A DNA stretch of 64,000 bases, from assembly GCA_013285465.1 (NCBI GenBank), contig CP053449.1:1698735-1762734 (forward strand), read 5' to 3'. The first letter of the stretch is position 1, and each line of letters begins with the position of its first letter. Of this stretch, positions 30,944 through 58,292 are shown one piece after another. Both the position numbers and the translations under genes were made by a program. The notes beneath the pieces were generated by a model. It was given only the letters and a program-made list of their open reading frames with translations. It was not told the origin of the DNA and ran no database searches. The DNA is from Pseudomonadota bacterium. GTDB lineage: Bacteria > Pseudomonadota > Alphaproteobacteria > Micavibrionales > CSBR16-224.

Positions 30944-30960
30944 GGTGTTGTCAGACTAAA
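30944..30960 (+). repeat. IS terminal inverted repeat, left
   Basis: GGTGTTGTCAGACTAAA, matching the right end at 16 of 17 positions in inverted orientation. It defines the left boundary of the IS6-like element. Confidence 0.85.
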
Positions 30961-30995
30961 ACGCATAATTCTCGAAACCCGCCTCGCCTACCAAT

Positions 30996-31694
30996 CTATC
31001 CTACGAGAATTGCCTGCCACTCGACAAGAGAAGCATCACGTAATTCCTTAAATGTTGTTCGTTTTTCGAGGTGACGTTGGTGGTTAAAATGGTTGAGAAA
31101 GACGGATTGAAAACTGGTAAATTTCTGTAGTGATCGCATTGATCGAAACTTGTTCATCAGCTTTTCTCGCCTTCGAAAATGGAGATGAGAGTTTTCAACT
31201 TGGTTGTTTTCATACTGCTTCGTTTCGTGGAGATACGCCATGTTCAGAGCCTTCAAAGCAGCGCGATATGATTTCAATTTATCTGTCACGATCTGTTTTG
31301 GAATGCCGTATTGCTTCACCATTTTCTTGAGGAATCTCTTGGCTGTACGGGCGTCACGGCGTTTCGAAACATAGCAGTCAATGACCGTTCCCTCTTGATC
31401 GACAGCGCGCCAAAGATAATGGAGTTCACCATTAATTTTGACGAAGACTTCATCAATATGCCACCGCCAGTTGGAAATACTTTGTGGCTTTTTCTTTTTC
31501 ATCTCTTTGGAAAACAAAGAGCCAAAACGGTTCCACCAATAGCGGATTGTTTCATGGCAAACATCAATGCCGCGCTCATACAAAATGTCTTCAACCTGTC
31601 TCAAGCTGAGTGGATATCGGATGTAATACATCACCGCCATTTTGATGATTTCTGGACTCGTATTGAAGTATTTAAAATGATTTATTTTTGCCAT
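30996..31694 (-). CDS. IS6-family transposase
   Basis: The 232-residue DDE transposase has an N-terminal helix-turn-helix-like region (RYPLSLRQVEDILYERGIDV, HETIRYWWNRFG). The catalytic core shows WHIDEVFVKING (first Asp), IPKQIVTDKLKSY (second Asp) and ENNQVENSHLHFRRREK (Glu). This spacing and the ENSHL...RREK block are typical of IS6 family enzymes, and the length is in the usual 220-240 range. The frame is complete, so the element may still be active. It fills nearly all of the 806-base IS. Confidence 0.95.
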   Translation of the reverse strand: MAKINHFKYFNTSPEIIKMAVMYYIRYPLSLRQVEDILYERGIDVCHETIRYWWNRFGSLFSKEMKKKKPQSISNWRWHIDEVFVKINGELHYLWRAVDQEGTVIDCYVSKRRDARTAKRFLKKMVKQYGIPKQIVTDKLKSYRAALKALNMAYLHETKQYENNQVENSHLHFRRREKLMNKFRSMRSLQKFTSFQSVFLNHFNHQRHLEKRTTFKELRDASLVEWQAILVG

Positions 31695-31732
31695 GTTTCA
31701 TCGTAACACGGCTACATTTTCGAAAACATGGA

Positions 31733-31749
31733 TTTAGTCTGACAAGACC
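31733..31749 (-). repeat. IS terminal inverted repeat, right
   Basis: Reads GGTCTTGTCAGACTAAA on the minus strand and mirrors the left end with one mismatch. The base after it (31750) is already dndD-like coding sequence. Confidence 0.85.
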
Positions 31750-33785
31750 TTATTAGCGGTAAAAACGGCTTTGGAAAGACGACATTTCTTATGTCGCTTG
31801 TTTGGTGTCTGTATGGTAAGCAAATGGAAAAAGTTGACGTTCTTTATCAGAAAGAGATCAGCGATCATGGCGGGTATGGAAAATATATTGGGCACAGCCT
31901 AAATAGATTGGCAAAAGTAAACGGAGATAACGAGTTTTCGGTTTCCATCACGTTTTCAAACGTGAAAATCCCTGATATTACATGCAACGAAATTAAAGTT
32001 ACACGTATATGGAACGAACGTGCCGGGGAAAGTGTTGAAGTCTTAATTGATGGTCATAGAAATGAGTTAATAGAAGACCTTAGAACAGATGGGAAGCAAA
32101 ACGGAGAAGAGATTTTTATCCGCGACTTTATTCTGCCAATTGAGATTGCCAAATTCTTCTTTTTTGATGCAGAAAAAATTGTCTCTCTAGCGGAGATTAA
32201 CTCTCCAGATCAAAGAAAGCTCCTGAGCAAAGCATATACAGAGGTTTTGGGAATTAAGAAATATGAAGATTTGAAGGATCAGCTTGAAAGTATTCAAGAT
32301 GAATATCGTAAAAAATCAGCTAGTCGTAAGGATAAGGCTGATTTAAACCAATTGATCACAGATATTGATAATGCTGACATTCAGATCAATGAAATAGAGG
32401 AAAACATCGAAGAGCTTAGGAAGGAAAAGGCGGAAAAACGCCTTGAGTCAGATGATATTCAGCGAAAGCTAATCCAAGAAGGTAATCAAATTACATTGGA
32501 GCAATTAGAAGATTTGAAGGGAGAGGAAGCTGATTGGTTCCAAAAAATTGAAACTTTACAAGAAGAGTTAAAGGAGCTTTATGACTTTATTCCGTTTGGG
32601 CTGGCTGGAGAAACTCTTATTGAAATTTCTACACAGATTAAGCATGAGAAAGATTTTAGAGATAACACTTTCCGGCAAGAAGATATTCAGGAAAAGATTT
32701 CTCAATTTTTGATCGAGATCGAAGAGCAAAAGAAAGAGTTACCTCATGTGGTGCCAGTAGAGATACGAGATTTCTATGAATCCCAAATCAAGAGATTGAT
32801 TCCGCAGTTTTTCGGAGGAGCTGCAAGCGATCTGCCATCGAACTTTGTTGTGTTACATGATTTCTCAGATGCAGAAATTAATGAGTTTAACTCTTTGGCC
32901 GAAAGTTTACGCCAGTCATTACGTGACCGTTACAAGAGCCTGTATGAGCGCTTTAGTAGTGCGAAAACGGAACATGATGGTGTTAGAAGAAAAATTCGAG
33001 AGGCGGAAAAGGATGCAGAAGATGATTATATTGCAGGCTTACGGTCTCGTAAATCAGAGTTAGATAAGCGGATTGTAAAAATAGAAGAGGATATTAACAC
33101 CCTGCATCAAGAGATTGGTTCGATAAAAGCGAAACAGAAAACACTCCGTCAGAATCAAGAAATTCTAAGGAAGAAAATTGACACTTCGCGTAACTTCAGC
33201 GACAAAGAAGAGAAGGCGCAAGAAATTATCCAGCAACTTAAATCATTTATCAGAGCATTTAAAGAAGAGAAGAAAAAGTCTCTGGAAAAAAGTATTTTGG
33301 ATGAACTTAGCAAACTAATGCATAAAAAAGGCTTTATCAAAAAAGTAGTCGTTGATATTAGCCAATCCGGCGATGATGTTGATATCAATTTATTTGATAA
33401 GCGTAATCATAAAATTGATAAAGGCTCTTTGTCGATGGGAGAGCGCCAAATGTATGCCTCATCACTTCTAAAAGCACTTGTAGATGAGTCTGATATCGAA
33501 TTTCCGGTGTTTATCGACAGTCCTATGCAGAAATTTGACAAAGACCATGCGCGAAATATCATTAAAGAGTTTTATCCTAATGTCTCCGAGCAAGTCGTGA
33601 TTTTTCCCTTGATCCATAAAGAACTGACTTCTGATGAATTTGATCTCTTAAAAGGGAATATTAGTGCTGCATATTTAATTAACAACTTGGATGTAGATTC
33701 TTCGGAGTTCCTTAAAACGGTTCCGGAAGAGCTAATCACAACATACGATGAGATTGAAAATGCAAATAAACTTAAAAACGTCTGA
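31750..33785 (+). pseudogene. dndD: dndD, 5'-truncated by IS insertion
   Basis: DndD is an SMC/Rad50-like ATPase of the DNA phosphorothioation machinery. Coding similarity begins right after the IS end: the frame from 31749 gives LISGKNGFGKTTFLMSLVWC, a textbook Walker A. A stop (31740-31742) in the IS terminal repeat closes the frame upstream, and the first ATG (31791) lies after the Walker A lysine. Any protein made from it would therefore lack the P-loop. About 25-35 N-terminal residues are missing by comparison with the family's usual start. The remaining 664 residues include long coiled coils and a C-terminal ABC signature (LSMGERQMYASSLLKAL) and Walker B (FPVFIDSPMQKFD). It overlaps the next gene by 38 bases. 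Confidence 0.85.
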
Positions 33786-35337
33786 GGCCAACCTAGAAGT
33801 CGTCAAAAGTCTGACGAGTAAATTGCCTACGGGAACCAAAGAAAATGTCATAGCGCGGATTGCTCTTTGTTATTCTTTGCAACAGGGAAAGCATTTCAGT
33901 TCGTCTGAATTTAATGCGTATGATTCAAAAGGGAAGGAATATAAAGATCAAACCCTTTTTGATTCTAAGTACAAGGATTTTTATATTGCGCTAATCTGTC
34001 AACATTACGGTGTTTACCGTACAGATGAGAATATTCCGAAATATATCAAGCTTCATATTGATCACGGCTTAGAGACAATGGGGAATGTCTTTGAGAATAG
34101 CAAAGAATATAACTTCTTTGACTTTTTGTTAGAACACTTAGAAAAAGGCATGTCCGTTCTGGATACAGTCAAAATCAGCCTGGATGCTGTCCGTAATAAT
34201 AACCAGAAAGTCGAAAAGACACATTTTGCAGAGCCGATCAAAATAAACATCGGTCGTACGTTGGATACAAACGAGCCAATCGTTTTGAATTTTAACAATT
34301 CCGAAAAATACAATAACAACCATATTGCGGTGGCGGGTAATTCAGGTACTGGTAAGACGCAGTTTGCTTTGGAGCTGTTAAGGCAAATAAGCGAAGCTTC
34401 CAATCATCATGTGAATTTTATCTATTTGGACTTTAAGGGTCTCAAAAAAGATGGTGTTAAAGAATTGCAGCCATTTTTTGATAAGACAAAATCAATATTT
34501 GTTGATGCCCCTCAAGTTCCTTTCCCTGTTAACCCGTTGTCGTTTATAGATACGATTAATGAAAAAGATCGTCTGATGGGGATCGACAAATTTGTCGATA
34601 TTGTGGGTAAATATTCAAATTTGGGGATCAAGCAAAGTGGAATATTACGCGATGCCACTGTTGCAGCGTTTGCGAATAAGAAGGCCGGAGATTATCCCTC
34701 GATTCCAGAGATCAACGAAATTCTTTTGGAAATGGTGGGGGATAAACGAGATACGCTAACTGAAATTATTGGAGATCTCAGCCGGTATAACATTTTTGAA
34801 GAAGATCGGAAGGGAAAGCATTTTCTTGATAAAAATGTATACCTCTCTCTTTCTGGCGACTTGCCAAACACAGTTCGTTTTACAGCGTTGTTTCTGATTA
34901 TCAATTACATCTACAACACGTTTATGAACTTGGATAACACACCTGTTGAAAAGGGGCATCGTGGAATGCGCTATGTGCTTTTGATTGACGAAGCGCACGT
35001 GATTTTTAAAGAGCGTAAATACCAAGGCATCCTTGAAAAGATTTTGCGTGAGATCCGGTCAAAAGGTGTTTCTGTTGTCCTGCTCTCGCAAGGGATTGAG
35101 GAATTCAATCAGTCTGAGTTTGATTTTTCCAGCATGTGCGAAATGTCATTTTTGTTAGATGTGAAAGACAAAAACAATGGCAGGGCGATTAATAAGTTTC
35201 TGGGCCTGAGTGAGAGTGAGGCGAACAAAGTTTGCCGTAGCTTAGAAAAAATAAAGAAAGGACAGGCTGTTTCTAATATCAAGGAATTTTCAAAAGGTGA
35301 ACTATTTAAGATGAGCCAACTTTGGGAAAATATATAA
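33748..35337 (+). CDS. dndE: DndE domain fused to a HerA/FtsK-like ATPase
   Basis: The 529-residue protein joins two modules. Residues of about 5-115 match the small nicked-DNA-binding DndE family: NVIARIALCYSLQQGK, then ...YKDFYIALICQHYG and YIKLHIDHGLETM. A normal DndE ends there. Here a P-loop ATPase follows, with Walker A VAGNSGTGKTQFALELL near 195-210, Walker B LLIDEAHVIF near 411 and the sensor-like VVLLSQGIEEFNQ after it, like HerA/VirB4-type motors. The frame is intact. Its start lies inside dndD, so translation was coupled to it. I believe DndE-ATPase fusions have been noted in a subset of phosphorothioation clusters, but cannot check this here. The ATPase could stand in for the restriction motor DptH/DndH. 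Confidence 0.8.
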   Translation: MRLKMQINLKTSEANLEVVKSLTSKLPTGTKENVIARIALCYSLQQGKHFSSSEFNAYDSKGKEYKDQTLFDSKYKDFYIALICQHYGVYRTDENIPKYIKLHIDHGLETMGNVFENSKEYNFFDFLLEHLEKGMSVLDTVKISLDAVRNNNQKVEKTHFAEPIKINIGRTLDTNEPIVLNFNNSEKYNNNHIAVAGNSGTGKTQFALELLRQISEASNHHVNFIYLDFKGLKKDGVKELQPFFDKTKSIFVDAPQVPFPVNPLSFIDTINEKDRLMGIDKFVDIVGKYSNLGIKQSGILRDATVAAFANKKAGDYPSIPEINEILLEMVGDKRDTLTEIIGDLSRYNIFEEDRKGKHFLDKNVYLSLSGDLPNTVRFTALFLIINYIYNTFMNLDNTPVEKGHRGMRYVLLIDEAHVIFKERKYQGILEKILREIRSKGVSVVLLSQGIEEFNQSEFDFSSMCEMSFLLDVKDKNNGRAINKFLGLSESEANKVCRSLEKIKKGQAVSNIKEFSKGELFKMSQLWENI

Positions 35338-35351
35338 AGAGGCTTGAATTA

Positions 35352-35993
35352 ATGTTAAGTGATGATTGGCGAAATCGCATAGCATTGGTTTGGTGTTTCG
35401 TGAAAGAATATTCCTATTGGCTCGGAATGAACTTCATTTTTAGTCTGGTTCCAGTGGGTATAACACTCGTTGTCGATTGGGATAATAGCAAGGTTTTCGA
35501 AATTAGTAATGCCGTTATGTTAGGAATTTTATCATTCTCTATGACGATATTGCTATCGGGCATCCATGCATTTCAGCTGTCTTCAAAAAAAGTTGGAAGA
35601 GATATAATTATATTCCTATCTTTCTTTGGGACAGCAGTCGTAGGCCTCGTTTACCTGTACTACTATCAAGCAACCTCAGACACGCAATGTACGAACTTTG
35701 TAACGCCGCAATGCGTTGGAACTTTTGAGTTAAAATGCGATGGGGTGAAGATATTCCTTTGTGAGCAAGATCAATTCGAGAAGGCTGGTGTGAACTTAAT
35801 CGTTAGTCACAAAGAATCTATAGTAAGGTGGTTCTTGGGTATAACTTTACTGCTTGCCTCCGTCTTGAACTATAGTGCTTTACTGAAGGCAGCGTTTGAT
35901 GTGAGAGCGGCACAGATTACTGACAAACAGGAACAAGGTAAACGTGATGGGGATGCTATGAATTCCGAAGCGCAACAGCAGGGGCTTAGGTAA
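35352..35993 (+). CDS. Four-helix membrane protein in the dnd cluster
   Basis: The 213-residue protein of unknown family starts at ATG 35352, with AGAGG nine bases upstream; an earlier TTG overlapping the dndE stop is less likely. Four hydrophobic segments are visible: MNFIFSLVPVGITLVV, AVMLGILSFSMTILLSGI, IIIFLSFFGTAVVGLVYLYY and WFLGITLLLASVLNYSALL. Between the third and fourth is a loop with four cysteines (around residues 118-148), possibly a metal site or disulfide-bonded. The tail is charged and cytoplasmic-looking. It sits between dndE and dndB with no gap to dndB, so it probably belongs to the phosphorothioation system, which does not normally include a membrane subunit. Confidence 0.6.
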   Translation: MLSDDWRNRIALVWCFVKEYSYWLGMNFIFSLVPVGITLVVDWDNSKVFEISNAVMLGILSFSMTILLSGIHAFQLSSKKVGRDIIIFLSFFGTAVVGLVYLYYYQATSDTQCTNFVTPQCVGTFELKCDGVKIFLCEQDQFEKAGVNLIVSHKESIVRWFLGITLLLASVLNYSALLKAAFDVRAAQITDKQEQGKRDGDAMNSEAQQQGLR

Positions 35994-37355
35994 ATGCAGA
36001 CGGAGAGTAGAATTTTTCAAGGTAAAGAATATCTACTGTTAGATGTTGAACCCATTTATCAGAAATCTAAGGTTTTCTATCTTGCGAAGATGAAAGCCAA
36101 AGACCTTGTTGAGATGTTCACTGTTAGCCCTACGCAATACGATATCGATAAGAATAAAGCCCTTGCATCATCATTTGTAAGTGATGCGGACTATTACCAA
36201 GACCTTGTTGAGAAGTTAGAAAAGAGAACACCCCGCAATGATGATCGCAATACCGGTTTTCAGAGAGAGTTAAGAAAAGATCGTGCGAAAGCTATTAATA
36301 AATACTTAGCTGAGGAAGAGTACCCATTCTTTCCAAATACAATTATAGCGAGCTGTGAGTTAATTAATGATATTGAAGAAGCTGGTCTTAATACATCTTC
36401 GGGTATTGGCGACTTTGAATCCTTAGAGAATAGACCTGACCGTTTAGGCTTTTTGTATAAAGATGACGGAGAACACTATAGGCTTTTATTACCAAAGATG
36501 AAAGGCGCAGTATTAGTTATTGATGGACAACATCGATTGGAAGGTTTGAGGCTTTGGCTGGACAATGAGCAGAATGCCGATGGTTACAATGTGTTGGTAT
36601 CTTTTATCGTTGGGTATGATCGCTCTGTGATCGCAAAGCAATTTTACACTATTAATTATGAACAGAAATCAGTCAATAAGTCCTTATTGCTCCATTTAAC
36701 TGCAGAGTTTAGCCAAGACCTTGATGAAGTCACATTCTTACATAATCTTGTGAAAATATTGAACGAGCACGAGGACAGCCCGTTTCTTGGCAGAATTAAA
36801 ATGCTCGGTGTGACTCCAGAAGAAGCTCGCGGTGATGAAAGGTATCTGTATTCGGTATCGCAAGCATTCCTAATTGAGCATATGAAAAGATTTATTGATA
36901 AAAAATTTATAGATAGTAAAGCGTATACGCCAATTTTTTTGTATTACTTTCAACATAGAAATATGCATATTGATATTATTCGATTTTTGAGCAGATATTT
37001 TTTGGCCATAAAAGAGCTCAAGAGTGATTGGAATGACCCTCAGAATTCAATTTTATCGAAGGGAATGGGAATAGGAGCGTTTTTAGTGGCTTTGCACACG
37101 ATATTTCCAATAATTTTCGTTAATGATCTGGGACGCGATCCAAATAAAATTGGTGAAGTGAGTGTTGATTACTTTAAGAATGTTTTGAGTGGAATTGAAA
37201 ATGTGAATTTCACACGATCGGGCGACTTTACTGGTGTTGGTAGTTCCGGCACGGTAACTAAGATAAAAAACGCAATTTTGGATGAGATTGGCTATCGAGA
37301 TAATGGAGAAGTGGAAGAATTCCAAAAATGGCTACGGAGTAAAACAAAATTTTGA
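35994..37355 (+). CDS. dndB: DndB, DGQHR-domain protein of the phosphorothioation cluster
   Basis: The 453-residue protein has the defining DGQHR motif (VLVIDGQHRLEGLRLW near residues 173-188) and the surrounding block of the DndB family. In studied systems DndB is a transcriptional repressor of dnd operons and modulates modification sites. Its ATG directly follows the stop of the membrane-protein gene, so it is the last gene of the unit. In classical clusters dndB precedes dndC, dndD and dndE; here it is at the 3' end. DGQHR proteins also occur outside Dnd systems, but dndD- and dndE-like neighbours make this identity firm. Confidence 0.85.
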   Translation: MQTESRIFQGKEYLLLDVEPIYQKSKVFYLAKMKAKDLVEMFTVSPTQYDIDKNKALASSFVSDADYYQDLVEKLEKRTPRNDDRNTGFQRELRKDRAKAINKYLAEEEYPFFPNTIIASCELINDIEEAGLNTSSGIGDFESLENRPDRLGFLYKDDGEHYRLLLPKMKGAVLVIDGQHRLEGLRLWLDNEQNADGYNVLVSFIVGYDRSVIAKQFYTINYEQKSVNKSLLLHLTAEFSQDLDEVTFLHNLVKILNEHEDSPFLGRIKMLGVTPEEARGDERYLYSVSQAFLIEHMKRFIDKKFIDSKAYTPIFLYYFQHRNMHIDIIRFLSRYFLAIKELKSDWNDPQNSILSKGMGIGAFLVALHTIFPIIFVNDLGRDPNKIGEVSVDYFKNVLSGIENVNFTRSGDFTGVGSSGTVTKIKNAILDEIGYRDNGEVEEFQKWLRSKTKF

Positions 37356-38803: not shown

Positions 38804-39175
38804 GATTGCGCCACTAAAAGCGGCTCGGCATTACATTGTACCACCATGTAAACTACTGAATAATCATCATTTTATCCCCCCCCCCCTTTCTAAAGCTTGC
38901 CTATCGTCGCTGACCTACGCGGTCGTCTCTTTTATGGCGAACCTGACGGCATGCGCCCTGCGGCGCAACGCTTGCGGTTGGTTTCTTCCCCGGCCTCTAG
39001 CCTTCCTCGCGGAAATCAAGAAACAGCCCTCTTTTCGCGTCCTTCACTTTGTTACGGTCTCCTCGTCGAATTCTCCGGGGAGATGCGCCTTTGGCTTGGC
39101 CTGCCGTCTATCGGTTGCCATGAGACGGCCGCGGCGGTTGCGGCCAACAAACGCCAAGCAAAAGGAAGTAAGACA
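38804..39175. other. Divergent promoter region and GC-rich leader of ardC
   Basis: This gap between the leftward HNH gene and rightward ardC holds an 11-C tract at 38876-38886. A markedly GC-richer stretch follows, from 38890 to 39175, unlike the AT-rich DNA on its left. The latter stays open in two overlapping plus-strand frames, one in frame with ardC, but neither gives a recognisable protein. I read it as a leader or gene remnant carried together with ardC. Poly-C tracts of this length can be prone to slippage. Confidence 0.5.
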
Positions 39176-40069
39176 ATGACAAAACAACATTCAGATATTT
39201 ACAGCAAGGTAACGCAGAACATCATCACCGCCATCGAGAAAGGCGCAGGCGACTGGCAAATGCCCTGGCACCAAGCCGGATCAGGCCTCAACCGCCCGAA
39301 CAACATCAATACCGGCAATCCCTATCGCGGCATCAATATCCTGAACCTCTGGGTATCAGCACAGGCACAAGGCTTCAGCACCGGAACATGGGGAACCTAC
39401 AAGCAATGGCAAGAGAAGGGCTGCCAAGTCCGCAAAGGCGAAAAATCCTCTCTGGTCATCTTCTACAAGACAGACGAGATCGAGAACACCGATGGTGAAC
39501 TTGAAACGCGCTATATCGCCAGAGCCTCATACGTCTTTAATGCCGATCAAGTCGATGGCTTTGATGCACCGCCAGCACCCACACCGGAAAATCCGGTTGA
39601 AATCCTCGAGAATGTCGAGCAATTCATCAAGCATGCAAATGCAACAATTAAGCACACCGGCAACAGTGCCTTTTACCGTCCGGCAGATGACAGCATCACG
39701 ATGCCCGAGCAAAGCCGTTTTCTCGGCTCCAAGACCAGCACGGCAACAGAAGCATATTATTCCACGCTGCTGCACGAATTGTCACACTGGACAGGTGCAA
39801 AGCACCGTCTAGACAGAGCATTCGGCAAACGCTTTGGTGATAACGCCTATGCGGTAGAAGAGCTGGTCGCGGAACTGAGTGCTGCATTCCTCTGTGCTGA
39901 TCTCGGCATCACAGTAGAACCGAGACAAGACCACGCAGCATATCTTGAAAATTGGCTGACAGTACTCAAAGCCGACAAGAAGGCAATCTTCACCGCCGCA
40001 AGTCAGGCTGCAAAGGCAGCAGACTTTCTGAAAGCACTGCAACCGCTAGCTCAAAAGGAGGCGGCTTAG
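39176..40069 (+). CDS. ardC: ArdC-type antirestriction protein (zincin-like)
   Basis: The 297-residue protein starts at ATG 39176 with AAGGAAG eight bases upstream; an 93-codon upstream extension is ignored. The N-terminal ArdC domain is typical: IYSKVTQNIITAIEKGAGDW, NPYRGINILNLW, GTWGTYKQWQEKGCQVRKGE. A metallopeptidase-like domain follows with HELSHWTGAKHR at residues 200-211, where the two His and the Glu are the expected zinc/catalytic residues. ArdC of plasmids protects incoming DNA during conjugation from restriction and binds single-stranded DNA. It suggests that the island, or an ancestor of it, moved by conjugation. GC content is higher than in neighbouring island genes, so it may have been acquired separately. 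Confidence 0.9.
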   Translation: MTKQHSDIYSKVTQNIITAIEKGAGDWQMPWHQAGSGLNRPNNINTGNPYRGINILNLWVSAQAQGFSTGTWGTYKQWQEKGCQVRKGEKSSLVIFYKTDEIENTDGELETRYIARASYVFNADQVDGFDAPPAPTPENPVEILENVEQFIKHANATIKHTGNSAFYRPADDSITMPEQSRFLGSKTSTATEAYYSTLLHELSHWTGAKHRLDRAFGKRFGDNAYAVEELVAELSAAFLCADLGITVEPRQDHAAYLENWLTVLKADKKAIFTAASQAAKAADFLKALQPLAQKEAA

Positions 40070-40099: not shown

Positions 40100-42949
40100 T
40101 TAAGTATTGGTGTTTTGTTCTTTGGTTGGGTCGTAGTACAAACGGTATACTGAAGCTGCTCCCGTTCTCTGGATAAGAAATTTTAATTTGAACAATAGAA
40201 GCATAGTGTTATCTGAATCAGTCTCATGTGATAACTCCACAGGGTTTGCAGGTAAAGAAATATTTTCTATACTAGATTGCGGAAGCAAAAGACTGTATCC
40301 AACATCAGTTGCGGCTATAGTATAGACATCAATTTTATCGTTAATTGTTGCTATATATGCTGCGGAGCGGCTTTGTTTATCTGGATTATGCGTTACTGAA
40401 CAGTTGGGTGGCTGAACGAATTTCTGCAAGCCGCCATATTCATCGCACCAGTCGTAAAGCCATGATGGGCTTGTGACATTAGTTGTCAACAAAATATAAT
40501 TTTCTTGGTTCCCATTATTTAGAATATATTTCTCAATACTTTCCCAATATTGAACAGAATTATAGCCTTTCAGCCATTGCGGGTTACTACCAGCAATTTC
40601 ACTCCATAATACATGTGACAGGTGCTGAATAAGATAATGAGATATTTCTTGAGATAGTTCATCATCAAAACGATTGCTATCATCTTCCGTGAGAAAATAT
40701 CTTTTATGAGACTGCATTTTCCAAACCGTGTCACGATATGAGCCTTCTTGCACATCTCCATTAAATTGGTCAATAAATGCTTTTAAAGGTGAGTTGCTAA
40801 GTGCTTGCTCATCTCGCAGTCTTGCCGACACATTACGTTCAATATTCGCAAGGCGATTTTGGTCTATGCTTGTTGCGGCAATCTGTTGTTCTTCTAGCTG
40901 ATCTATTTTTGTGATTAATCCATTTAACTGTTTCTGCAAATCAGTTAGTTTCTTTTTTTGATAAGAAACGCTTAAATACCCAAGCAGCTCCTTTACATCT
41001 GCGATAGCATTGTTCTTTTTGGAGGCGTCTAAAATTTTTCTTGCTTTATATTTCAACTGTTCCGTTTTTTTGCATTCATGTGCATTTTCACAGAGCTTAT
41101 TGAAATTCCCATTATCTGGACAAGCGAGTAAAATGGCTAAAAACACTTCTGGCGGAATGTTACGACCATCACTCAATCTTGGGCGCCCCATAATTTGTGT
41201 CATTTGACAGTCAGCTATCGTATCAAGGCGATACATATCTATAATTGGGGCGTGTTCTTCAATCCGTACAATGCTATAAAGTACATCAGTTTGTTTGGTG
41301 AATATCCAATCATTCTTATCTGTTTCACCAAATACTCTTCCCGTCCAAAAATCTTTGATGGTGTGGTTTTCAGTATCAGCCTTTTGTTTCTTTTTCCACT
41401 CTACAAGCTTCGCCAGACAGGCAAGCCGTAAATCCTGCCACAGATTTTGGAATGCCCAATGGTATACATCTCTCTGTAATTTATCATCATTATTACTTTC
41501 CAACCGCTCTTTTAAATGTGCTGGAGATAAAAAGTACCTCTCTTGTACTGAATATAAAGCGTATTGGTACCCGAATACGGTCTTTTTCCACAAATGAAAA
41601 GCATCACTAAAATAGCGTTGCGCTACTTGATCTTTCTGTACACAAGACATCAAGTAGCGATGAGCTATTTGTATGAGAGAAGATTTATGGGGTTCCTCGT
41701 ATTGCAGAAACAGATCAAGGCCTATTTCCAGATTTTTATCCCTTGGAAAAGAGAAGTAATAACGTAACAATGCTTCCCAACTTCCAACAAGCTCATTAAC
41801 CAGTGTTTCGTATGTTACATCATTAAAGCGATTACGTTCACGCTCAACAATCCAGTAGCTGTTCAATATCCACTGCATAATTCCAGAACGAATAGGAGGT
41901 GTAAACAAATCGGAACGAAATGCTCTCCGATAGAGATTAAAAGCATTTCTGCTGGCATGCGCATAAAAACCTTGCTGGTTGGTCAAAATAATACTCTGCA
42001 CTAAGCCATGATAGGATTGTATTAAACTGTGTAAAAAATATTGAGGTGTTTTACCTTCTTTTATTTTAAAGAAATAGTTGTCATTATCATCAGGTAGACG
42101 CAGGAGATCTAAAAGGTATTTGACATAGGAATTGATTTCATCAACAAAATTATCTGCTTCAGCGAACGTGAGATTCCTGCTAGTAAGTACTGTGTTAATT
42201 TTTTCCCTGAGTAAGCTAACACTATCGGAAGAGTCAAAATTAGATTGGGTTTCACTCTTTGTTTCTATCTCTTGTGAAGCTAAATCACGTATTACATTTA
42301 GGCCTAGTCTTTTTTTGAGAATATTATCCTGTTGTCTGGGCAGTAAAAATTCAACCGTATTCCATATCAATTTACTCGTATAAAAAATATTTCCAAAAAA
42401 TAAAACCGTTGCCACAATAATGAGGCTGAAATACTCTAATAGCAAAGCAGCACTTAGCAGCAACAAAGTCAAAGTCGATATCATAATAAGTGGTTTTAAG
42501 GATACATGTTGTTTAAAACATATGTAGGCCGTTGGTTCGTTTTTCTGGGTCAATAAGTTCTCAGTAATGCTGGCGGTTATTGGTATCGCAAAACCTAGCA
42601 ATGCCGCCTGTACTGTTAGGATTGCCACTAGCACGTTGTTACTATTGTTTATTGTCTCGAATTCAACCCATTCCAATTGAATTGATAGCAAAGCCATAGC
42701 GATTAGAAAAAAATAAGAAACTATAAAATGGTTGCGTTCAATCCATTTGGGAAAACATCTCTGATATTCTTTATTGTTTTTAATTTTGCTAATAATCTGA
42801 TGAAACTGTCTGTGCCGTAAAAATATCTTTTTACCTGCATAGAATGCGCTTTTTACCAAGGCTAGAAATGGTCTTTCTGTAAGGGCAAGGCTGATCATTT
42901 GTGCATAAGACAAAAGAAAAGTGATTGTAATAATAAAGAAATCAGCCAT
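40100..42949 (-). CDS. Large membrane-anchored protein of unknown function, 949 aa
   Basis: No family recognised. The N-terminal 200 residues hold about five hydrophobic segments, near residues 3-25, 73-92, 105-128, 152-170 and 172-192, for example FIVSYFFLIAMALLSIQL and LTLLLLSAALLLEYF. The remaining 740 residues are soluble and mainly helical, with a coiled-coil stretch near 670-720 (KKLTDLQKQLNGLITKIDQL). I see no P-loop, nuclease, or protease motif. The gene lies alone between ardC and the integrase, is AT-rich, and converges on ardC. Its place in a defence-type island makes an antiphage role possible, but that is only position-based. Confidence 0.55.
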   Translation of the reverse strand: MADFFIITITFLLSYAQMISLALTERPFLALVKSAFYAGKKIFLRHRQFHQIISKIKNNKEYQRCFPKWIERNHFIVSYFFLIAMALLSIQLEWVEFETINNSNNVLVAILTVQAALLGFAIPITASITENLLTQKNEPTAYICFKQHVSLKPLIMISTLTLLLLSAALLLEYFSLIIVATVLFFGNIFYTSKLIWNTVEFLLPRQQDNILKKRLGLNVIRDLASQEIETKSETQSNFDSSDSVSLLREKINTVLTSRNLTFAEADNFVDEINSYVKYLLDLLRLPDDNDNYFFKIKEGKTPQYFLHSLIQSYHGLVQSIILTNQQGFYAHASRNAFNLYRRAFRSDLFTPPIRSGIMQWILNSYWIVERERNRFNDVTYETLVNELVGSWEALLRYYFSFPRDKNLEIGLDLFLQYEEPHKSSLIQIAHRYLMSCVQKDQVAQRYFSDAFHLWKKTVFGYQYALYSVQERYFLSPAHLKERLESNNDDKLQRDVYHWAFQNLWQDLRLACLAKLVEWKKKQKADTENHTIKDFWTGRVFGETDKNDWIFTKQTDVLYSIVRIEEHAPIIDMYRLDTIADCQMTQIMGRPRLSDGRNIPPEVFLAILLACPDNGNFNKLCENAHECKKTEQLKYKARKILDASKKNNAIADVKELLGYLSVSYQKKKLTDLQKQLNGLITKIDQLEEQQIAATSIDQNRLANIERNVSARLRDEQALSNSPLKAFIDQFNGDVQEGSYRDTVWKMQSHKRYFLTEDDSNRFDDELSQEISHYLIQHLSHVLWSEIAGSNPQWLKGYNSVQYWESIEKYILNNGNQENYILLTTNVTSPSWLYDWCDEYGGLQKFVQPPNCSVTHNPDKQSRSAAYIATINDKIDVYTIAATDVGYSLLLPQSSIENISLPANPVELSHETDSDNTMLLLFKLKFLIQRTGAASVYRLYYDPTKEQNTNT

Positions 42950-42990: not shown

Positions 42991-44313
42991 TTATACCTCT
43001 GGTGCCTGAAAGGCAATTTTATTTAGCCACTCTAGCTTTGTCTCCAGAATATGCCCGCGCCCGTATTTCGGGCCACGTGACTTATGTCCCATCAGGTTAT
43101 CAATGACTTCTTCCGGTGCCTGAATATCACGAAGGCGATCTTTGAAAGTGTGGCGCAGGGAATAGAGTGACTGGCCTTCGGACGGGCTCAGGTTATTTTC
43201 GCGCAGGAATTTATTAATAACGTTCGAGGCTGTATCGCCGCTGGCATAGCGCTCAAGCCCCTGTGGAAACATTTTTATACCGTACAGCGCCGAACCCACC
43301 AGCGGAATTTGTCTGTCTGATTGCGCTGTTTTCAGTGTTCCGCGTGCATTGTTGCGAATATGGATGAAAGGAATATCCGTATCAAGCCGGATGTCTTCGG
43401 GCAAAAGGCCGGTAATTTCGGAGACCCTCGCCCCGGTATCGGCCATGATATAAATCAGCGCCCTCGCCTCCTCATTCAAGCCGTCGAGCGCGTTGCTGTT
43501 CAGGAAGACTTTCTGCACATAGTCAGCCTCGTATGATTTGCGGCTGTCATCCCCTTCCCGCAGTTTCACCTTTGCAAACAGCGCGGTGATTTCCGTGTCC
43601 GGCACAACATCGGTGACGTTGCACACCATCTCGACAATATCTTTCACATAGCCGATATTTTTATTCGCCGTCGCCGGTTTGCGTCCCTCCTGCGTCACGC
43701 GACGCAGCCACCATTCCTGAAAATGTAAAACATCTTTGCGCGTCACTTCCGCAACAGGTTTATCCCCGATTACTTCAATAAAATTTTCAATCGCCAGCTT
43801 ACGCGGGTTTTCCCATTTGCGGATTTGATGTTCTGTCTTACCAAGAAGACGATCCGCACAGCGTGGCCGGTAAATCTCCCACGCTTCACCGAGCATGGTT
43901 TTTGGAATATCTGCCGTGCCTAGCAACGCTGTTTGCAGTTGTTGTGATTTCTCCGGCTGCTTTTCTTCCGCCTCTCTTAAGGCCAGCAGTCTGTCAACCA
44001 GTTCAGCGGCAGACGCATTTTCGGAAAGGTCGGAAATATCCCGATAAGCAAAGCCGTGCAGCCTCGCCGTTGTAACGGCCTTCCGGTAAAGCGAATCTCT
44101 GCCTTGCTTTGCAGTATCCGGTGATGCCAGAAGTTCCCGCCAGTATTTTTCAACAGCTTCATTCTGCACAACCGCCCGTTTTCTAGCGGTCGCGCGGTCT
44201 TTCGTCTTCAGAGATATTTTGATATGTCTTCGGCTGTCATAGGCGGACAGGTCTTTCGGCACACGCCGAAAGTAATAATACCACCCATTATACTGCATCA
44301 GATAATCAGACAT
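42991..44313 (-). CDS. Tyrosine site-specific integrase
   Basis: The 440-residue tyrosine recombinase probably inserted the island at tRNA-Tyr. The N-terminal arm-type domain reads MQYNGWYYYFRRVPKDL and ISLKTKDRATARKRA. The core-binding domain follows in the middle. Catalytic residues are visible: Arg in DTGARVSEITG, YSLRH (Arg387, His388), His410 in LMGHKS and the nucleophile Tyr417 in GPKYGRG. It is encoded so that transcription runs away from the tRNA, 147 bases from the tRNA 3' end, a standard layout. The frame is intact, so excision may still be possible if both attachment sites survive. Confidence 0.9.
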   Translation of the reverse strand: MSDYLMQYNGWYYYFRRVPKDLSAYDSRRHIKISLKTKDRATARKRAVVQNEAVEKYWRELLASPDTAKQGRDSLYRKAVTTARLHGFAYRDISDLSENASAAELVDRLLALREAEEKQPEKSQQLQTALLGTADIPKTMLGEAWEIYRPRCADRLLGKTEHQIRKWENPRKLAIENFIEVIGDKPVAEVTRKDVLHFQEWWLRRVTQEGRKPATANKNIGYVKDIVEMVCNVTDVVPDTEITALFAKVKLREGDDSRKSYEADYVQKVFLNSNALDGLNEEARALIYIMADTGARVSEITGLLPEDIRLDTDIPFIHIRNNARGTLKTAQSDRQIPLVGSALYGIKMFPQGLERYASGDTASNVINKFLRENNLSPSEGQSLYSLRHTFKDRLRDIQAPEEVIDNLMGHKSRGPKYGRGHILETKLEWLNKIAFQAPEV

Positions 44314-44459: not shown

Positions 44460-44544
44460 TGGTGGAGGGGACAGGATTCGAACCTGTGTACGCTATGCGG
44501 GCAGATTTACAGTCTGCTGCCTTTAACCACTCGGCCACCCCTCC
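44460..44544 (-). tRNA. tRNA-Tyr (GTA)
   Basis: On the minus strand the gene reads GGAGGGGTGGCCGAGTGG at the 5' end. It has an anticodon arm GCAGACTGTAAATCTGC (GTA at 44510-44508), a long variable arm, GGTTCGAATCC in the T arm, and CCCCTCC-A-CCA at the 3' end. The seven-base acceptor stem pairs perfectly and CCA is encoded. The 85-base length fits the long-variable-arm class. Its 3' end faces the integrase and is the likely attachment site. Confidence 0.97.
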
Positions 44545-57870: not shown

Positions 57871-57908
57871 CTGTCTTTTATAGCCGTATTTCCGCCGAAA
57901 AAACAGGC

Positions 57909-57946
57909 AAAAAAAAGCGGGGCGGTTCTGTTGCTAGGTCCGCCCC
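57909..57946 (-). terminator. Intrinsic terminator of ssrA
   Basis: On the minus strand a GC-rich stem (GGGGCGG...CCGCCCC, roughly 57943-57919) is followed by eight T residues (57916-57909). It ends the ssrA transcript and separates it from the UDG gene. Confidence 0.85.
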
Positions 57947-58256
57947 GAACCCCACCTACCTCAAGTCAATGAAGCAGGGATTAAAATGCTTGGTAGCTTA
58001 AGCTGCGATACGCAGATCAGCAACCTGACTGTTGTTGTCGTTTGCATTTATAAGTTTTTGACCGATAACGGCGGTACACCACCGGGTGAAAGCTAAAACC
58101 GTCTTTACTGCGCGCGTCGATCCTATTTCGGCCCCATCACAACGGTACATGCCTCATCTGCTAATGTATCGTTATGGTGGAGCCGCCGGGTACTGCCCCC
58201 GGGTCCGCAAGCGCCTATTCCACAGCGCGTTTATCACCATAGTCAGACAAGCTGAC
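57947..58256 (-). ncRNA. ssrA: Circularly permuted (two-piece) tmRNA
   Basis: This is the trans-translation RNA that rescues stalled ribosomes. On the minus strand the acceptor piece comes first and ends CGGCTCCACCA, with CCA at 58177-58175. A spacer of about 40 bases is expected to be processed out. Then the coding piece begins GGGGCCGAAATAGG at 58135, like the tRNA-like 5' end of one-piece tmRNAs. The tag frame runs from 58045 to the TAA at 58000-57998 and encodes ANDNNSQVADLRIAA, a standard alanine-ended degradation tag. This permuted order is characteristic of alphaproteobacteria (also found in a few other lineages). The outer ends are set by the promoter and terminator, so they are approximate. 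Confidence 0.95.
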
Positions 58257-58262
58257 AATTCC

Positions 58263-58292
58263 ATTATATCACAAATTCGGGAATTTCATCAA
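58263..58292 (-). promoter_or_regulatory. Promoter of ssrA
   Basis: TTGATG (58292-58287) and a consensus TATAAT (58268-58263) are separated by 18 bases on the minus strand. The start would be near 58256, just before the acceptor piece. Confidence 0.8.

Follow-up and report, generated by a model that had tools for sequence, protein, structure and literature searches.

A fusion of DndE with a HerA-type motor in a truncated dnd locus

The window (i.e., the whole stretch of 64,000 nucleotides analysed here) encodes a protein that, by profile and by structural model, is a DndE domain joined to a HerA-type motor whose nearest relatives are the motors of DndH. Our preferred reading, to which we give a probability of roughly 0.55, is that the fusion is the DndE of a phosphorothioation (PT) system and bears a DndH-related HerA translocase, that this motor serves the DndC/DndD/DndE complex, and that the locus has been inactivated here, the intact dndE::herA gene having been left behind recently next to a gene for a PT-dependent nuclease (Table 1). 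The window locus itself is just a broken example of the fusion class.

Table 1. Features of the dnd locus and its surroundings, in window coordinates.
Feature	Position	Strand	Basis and remarks
IS6-family insertion element	30944-31749	-	17-bp terminal inverted repeats 30944-30960 / 31733-31749
IS6 transposase gene	30996-31694	-	NCBIfam IS6 transposase, E=1e-59
dndD, truncated	31752-33785	+	first 32 codons lost at IS6 end; TIGR03185, E=2e-67
dndE::herA fusion	33748-35337	+	open for 529 aa; likelier start ATG 33760
DndE domain	33772-34092	+	residues 9-115, two ribbon-helix-helix units; PF08870, model secondary structure
HerA-type motor domain, DndH-like	34192-35328	+	residues 149-527; PADLOC, Foldseek
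Membrane protein, 223 aa	35322-35993	+	four predicted TM segments (hydropathy); orphan by sequence
DGQHR-domain, DndB-like protein, 453 aa	35994-37355	+	TIGR03187, E=6e-36; PF14072 DndB, E=2e-10
Phosphorothioate-DNA-dependent HNH restriction endonuclease (type IV), 349 aa	37754-38803	-	NF045808, 262.6 bits (cut-off 180 bits)
ArdC-type antirestriction protein	38897-40069	+	ArdcN and zincin domains
949-aa protein	40100-42949	-	GC 0.37
Tyrosine recombinase, probable island integrase	42991-44313	-	PF00589, E=2e-8; adjoins tRNA-Tyr
tRNA-Tyr	44460-44544		ARAGORN
tmRNA	57907-58268	-	ARAGORN, marked with an asterisk

Both halves of the fusion were recovered in profile searches. The Pfam DndE profile (PF08870) reached 71.6 bits, its cut-off being 25 (E=8.6e-20, profile positions 2-107 of 111), which bears out an earlier note on this DNA that had placed DndE in the first 115 residues; the NCBIfam DndE equivalog profile scored 44.3, under its stricter cut-off of 71.85, and the PDB sequence match for this part is the DndE structure 7x4e (E=8.7e-7). 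Residues 149-522 matched the PADLOC profile for the DndH C-terminal motor (E=3.1e-29) and, in the PDB, DptH (7es4, E=6e-14). The Walker motifs are intact, as the earlier note had also said of this ATPase: GNSGTGKT (Walker A, residues 197-204) and LLIDEAH (Walker B, residues 411-417) are present together with Q448, the expected sensor 1 glutamine, and an alignment of 44 homologues shows no variation at most of these sites. Searches of Pfam, NCBIfam and PADLOC matched no other domain, and no nuclease, in the 529 residues.

An AlphaFold2 model built with the 44 homologues (mean pLDDT 85.7) predicts the DndE part, a helical linker and a HerA fold. In it, the DndE part forms a pair of ribbon-helix-helix units (E8-10, H14-24, H32-45 and E64-66, H76-87, H96-117). 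Compared with the PDB by Foldseek, the whole model matches the DndH C-domain best (7es4, E=4.8e-20, TM 0.84 by target length), with further matches to VirB4, HerA and the anti-phage HerA-SIR2 and HerA-DUF4297 complexes. On the question of whether the motor groups with HerA/FtsK clade 3, bit scores alone were used—a profile of the motor gives DndH 71-96 bits and the HerA-like protein YjgR about 28 bits—because the outgroup was misaligned in a rooted HerA tree, which also had very long branches.

Relatives of the fusion were found by genome scan at 74 loci, mostly in Bacteroidota and mostly full-length (48-77% identity in the best segment). Their gene order is dndC-dndD-dndE::herA, with dndD intact in 55 loci, and 23 loci have a DndA/IscS-type cysteine desulfurase nearby. 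Because most relatives begin MQINI and dndD overlaps dndE::herA by 11 nt in 55 of 66 loci, we take the in-frame Met5 as the likelier start of the window gene. The fusion is the sole DndE found in 38 of 40 relative genomes, so DndE::HerA is what serves its system as DndE. Of the other two genomes, one has an additional stand-alone DndE (G416) and the other has a fusion that lost its DndE part (G409, locus L037).

Downstream (3') of dndE::herA the relatives carry an exchangeable cassette. Among its types are a GIY-YIG-like gene (a weak match) followed by a DGQHR gene (14 loci), a small multi-TM protein followed by DGQHR (12 loci), two unnamed proteins of about 367 and 328 aa (17 loci), and a GHKL ATPase with, in most cases, a Methyltransf_35 protein after it (6-7 loci); an Mrr nuclease is sometimes included (10 loci). 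Specifically, GHKL/HATPase_c_3 and Methyltransf_35 proteins were seen 3' of dndE::herA at L004, L007, L051, L052, L059 and L072.

The earlier note had suggested that this version of the fusion, with its membrane partner, may be a distinct subtype, and had named the order dndD, DndE::ATPase, membrane protein, dndB for a survey of genomes. The relatives do not support this suggestion. The slot between dndE::herA and DGQHR holds a small multi-TM gene in only 12 of 26 relatives and a GIY-YIG-like gene in the other 14, and the DGQHR genes that we examined outside DndE::HerA loci are likewise preceded by a small protein that has two or more hydrophobic segments (e.g., in Aliivibrio, beside dptH and dndDE; in Rhizobium and Pontibrevibacter; in Acinetobacter, beside a BglII-type system; and in others). 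Such TM-DGQHR pairs adjoin canonical dptGH/dndDE and restriction-modification genes as well. As one filler of a variable slot that also pairs with DGQHR outside fusion loci, the membrane gene defines no subtype, and TM plus DGQHR appears to be a mobile pair and no hallmark of the DndE::HerA fusion. A small multi-TM protein directly upstream of a DGQHR/DndB-like gene, possibly a two-gene module, was noted in the window (35322-37355) and at L102, L111, L113, L114 and L115.

The window's own membrane protein had no family match in Pfam, NCBIfam or PADLOC and no homologue in plasmid and viral scans, and its single-sequence model is poor (pLDDT 47). It is linked to the TM genes of the relatives through position and topology, not sequence: homology to them was not supported, profile comparisons giving a non-significant E of about 0.1. 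For the relatives' TM proteins, a SLATT effector was considered and dropped as weak (2 of 7 members matched, best E 0.004, 16.6 bits against a 60-bit cut-off).

In the window, the dnd operon is cut by the IS6 element. Alignment to intact relatives of 705 aa shows that dndD resumes at codon 33 (ISGKNGFGKTTFLM) past the IS6 end, and the first usable start (ATG 31791) lies downstream of the Walker A codons. The terminal inverted repeats of the element match at 94%; no 8-bp target duplication was found around it and no dndC fragment beyond its far side. The simplest reading is a deletion adjoining the insertion. A search for DndC in the complete, single-contig genome gave no match, and neither a second copy of the fusion nor DndF was found there. 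With dndD truncated and dndC gone—dndC and full-length dndD being what we take to define a working Dnd locus—the window cluster cannot be a working phosphorothioation system. What remains is well preserved: DndD keeps all 106 of the positions that are invariant in 54 relatives, DndE::HerA keeps 96 of 97 invariant residues, and dndD and dndE::herA overlap as in the relatives, though this dndD is truncated. Since these invariant residues are kept, the loss of dndC and of the dndD start looks recent, and we judge it somewhat more probable than the reverse, jointly with the rest of our preferred reading, that dndE::herA is here a leftover; against this, the gene in the window may still fill an orphan role of some kind. 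No distal att repeat of the probable island was found within the window. The 949-aa protein inside this island seems to have membrane segments near its N-terminus, and searches of Pfam, NCBIfam and PADLOC assigned it to no family with significance. Elsewhere in the window, the tmRNA is probably permuted, and permutation would fit an alphaproteobacterial host.

The PT-dependent nuclease gene lies 2.4 kb downstream of the fusion, at a locus where PT synthesis has been lost. A related SBD-HNH gene was seen at eroded dndC/dndD/dndE::herA loci with differing break points (L013, L030, L037, L069 and L076), these SBD-HNH genes falling under the NF045808 cut-off where scored; beside intact dndD, such a gene occurs at none of 55 loci. 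A strict incompatibility between PT nuclease and intact dnd genes was rejected, as two intact-operon genomes carry a near-full-length NF045808-like protein elsewhere, and on account of these counter-examples the nuclease beside lost dnd genes is a tendency only. The pattern fits gain of the nuclease after, or with, loss of modification. The ArdC-type antirestriction gene adjoins the nuclease gene in the window.

Fusions of DndE to a motor are common beyond these relatives. An even sample of the window's phylum (398 genomes) contained DndE in 18; with the window's own genome set aside, 9 lay in reading frames roughly 500-570 aa long, 7 were stand-alone and 1 was cut by a contig end. All nine long-frame genes carry an FtsK domain, 8 of them matching the FtsK alpha domain, and they match DndE weakly, with E between 1e-7 and 5e-4 and in some cases under the cut-off. 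A Bacteroidota sample (395 genomes, DndE in 10) gave, with the search centre set aside, 4 HerA fusions and 5 stand-alone genes, such that motor fusions make up about half of the DndE genes sampled across the two phyla. Judged from these domain matches, DndE::FtsK is a second fusion, separate from DndE::HerA. In Rhizobium phaseoli its operon reads dndC, small protein, dndD, DndE::FtsK. DndE::FtsK was seen in dnd operons at L111/L117 (Rhizobium phaseoli), L126-L133 and L135, and also in Aureimonas, Burkholderia glumae and Mesorhizobium plasmids. The megaplasmid of Methylorubrum extorquens AM1 has a divergent DndE::HerA (26% identity) 3' of dndC-dndD. In the random samples, DndC was present in all 12 genomes with stand-alone DndE vs 7 of 12 with a fusion. 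The five fusion genomes without a DndC match (G145, G085, G041, G703 and G538) may hold non-phosphorothioation systems or reflect assembly gaps; because of them, and allowing for such gaps, fusions need not all serve phosphorothioation.

We used DndF (TIGR03238) as the marker for DndFGH. It scored over the cut-off in one of the 40 DndE::HerA genomes, and in that genome a stand-alone DndE is also present, on the contig that bears DndF. In the random samples, DndF occurred in 4 of 12 stand-alone-DndE genomes vs none of 12 fusion genomes (2 of 5 vs 0 of 3 in Bacteroidota, where new fusion genomes are counted, and 2 of 7 vs 0 of 9 in the window's phylum). Combined, 0 of 51 fusion-only genomes have DndF against 4 of 12, for a one-sided hypergeometric probability of about 8e-4 that is indicative only, because the genomes are related; the 51 include one sub-threshold DndF match (E=1e-4) and the genome whose fusion lost its DndE part. 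Absence of DndF is common with stand-alone DndE too (8 of 12). By co-occurrence, fusion systems do not use DndFGH, and the motor seems to be located on either DndE or DndH. The earlier suggestion that the fusion perhaps replaces DptH/DndH is thereby supported as far as co-occurrence goes, the counts being consistent with the fusion taking over the place of the DndH motor.

How might such a protein work? Phosphorothioation cannot proceed without DndE (PMC4182426). DndE attaches to the coiled coil of DndD, and a ring of DndC, DndD and DndE around DNA has been predicted (PMC12193691). We propose that the DndE part of the fusion binds to DNA and to the DndD coiled coil in the manner of stand-alone DndE, and that the motor part would form a ring pumping duplex DNA, hexamer formation and ATP-driven movement being predictions of this proposal. 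This second ring would move DNA through or past the DndC/DndD/DndE complex, which could thereby scan or load with its own motor, and the variable downstream gene (membrane protein, GIY-YIG-like, GHKL ATPase plus methyltransferase, or others) would probably be an effector or regulator.

It is possible, though on balance unlikely, that DndE::HerA is instead an invader-handling translocase in place of DndH. DndE would then tell PT from unmodified DNA, the HerA ring would pump or stall on the invader, and a downstream nuclease or membrane gene would act as effector, by analogy with HerA-SIR2 and HerA-DUF4297. The closeness of the motor to DndH in sequence and fold, the exclusion with DndF, the exchangeable effector-like genes 3' of the fusion and the anti-phage HerA complexes among the structural matches all speak for such a role; yet the fusion is the only DndE, which modification needs (PMC4182426), and must therefore at least modify, and the protein itself is without a nuclease domain. 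We consider it distinctly improbable that the downstream genes are ordinary island cargo, that the motor helps the modification complex only, and that the missing DndF reflects lineage and not exclusion. The 74 loci are mostly from Bacteroidota, where dnd systems may lack DndFGH anyway, and the genomes are not independent; however, within Bacteroidota DndF still divides between stand-alone and fusion genomes, and the window's phylum points in the same direction. Chance N-terminal resemblance in an ATPase unrelated to DndE systems, which the earlier note had named as a refutation, can be dismissed, given the PF08870 match over the full domain, the PDB match to DndE, the modelled DndE part and the dndD overlap conserved in relatives.

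The motor carried by about half of the sampled DndE genes, in two types and in the absence of DndF, leads us to hypothesize that a PT system needs a DNA translocase, kept on DndE or on DndH. More tentatively, and with the odds somewhat against us, PT systems might come in two layouts—one with the motor on DndH and a stand-alone DndE, the other with the motor on DndE through separate captures of HerA and FtsK, without DndFGH—and in the latter, modification and interception of invaders would be coupled in one translocating machine with an exchangeable downstream effector. These patterns bear on the role of DndE in phosphorothioation and on protection by modification without DndFGH.

The architecture is not new: the earlier note's belief that DndE-ATPase fusions had been reported is correct, for Rakesh, Aravind and Krishnan (2024; PMC10853773, citing Krishnan 2020) describe fusions of DndE to clade-3 HerA/FtsK domains, with a DndD-like ATPase alongside. 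Their fusion has the same architecture, an adjacent DndD-related ABC ATPase and a motor grouped with DndH motors, the window operon differing in its loss of dndC and of the dndD start; the main-text parts searched contained no mention of DndE::FtsK, the DndFGH exclusion or the TM-DGQHR pair. The nearest motor by sequence and fold is the C-terminal motor of DndH/DptH (7es4), a protein of about 1,700 aa with eight domains, including REase and target-recognition domains, whereas the fusion has 529 aa, carries its motor on DndE and has no nuclease. Anti-phage HerA-SIR2 and HerA-DUF4297 likewise place a HerA motor beside a changing effector gene, but have neither DndE nor a modification system, and their likeness to the fusion is one of fold only. 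Stand-alone DndE (E. coli B7A; N. bangense, 7x4e) shares the two ribbon-helix-helix units and a gene position after dndD and, unlike the fusion, has about 110-130 aa and no motor. DndE::FtsK of Rhizobium phaseoli and relatives also joins an N-terminal DndE to a DNA motor after dndC-dndD; its motor belongs to the true FtsK type and includes an FtsK alpha domain, unlike the HerA-type motor of the window.
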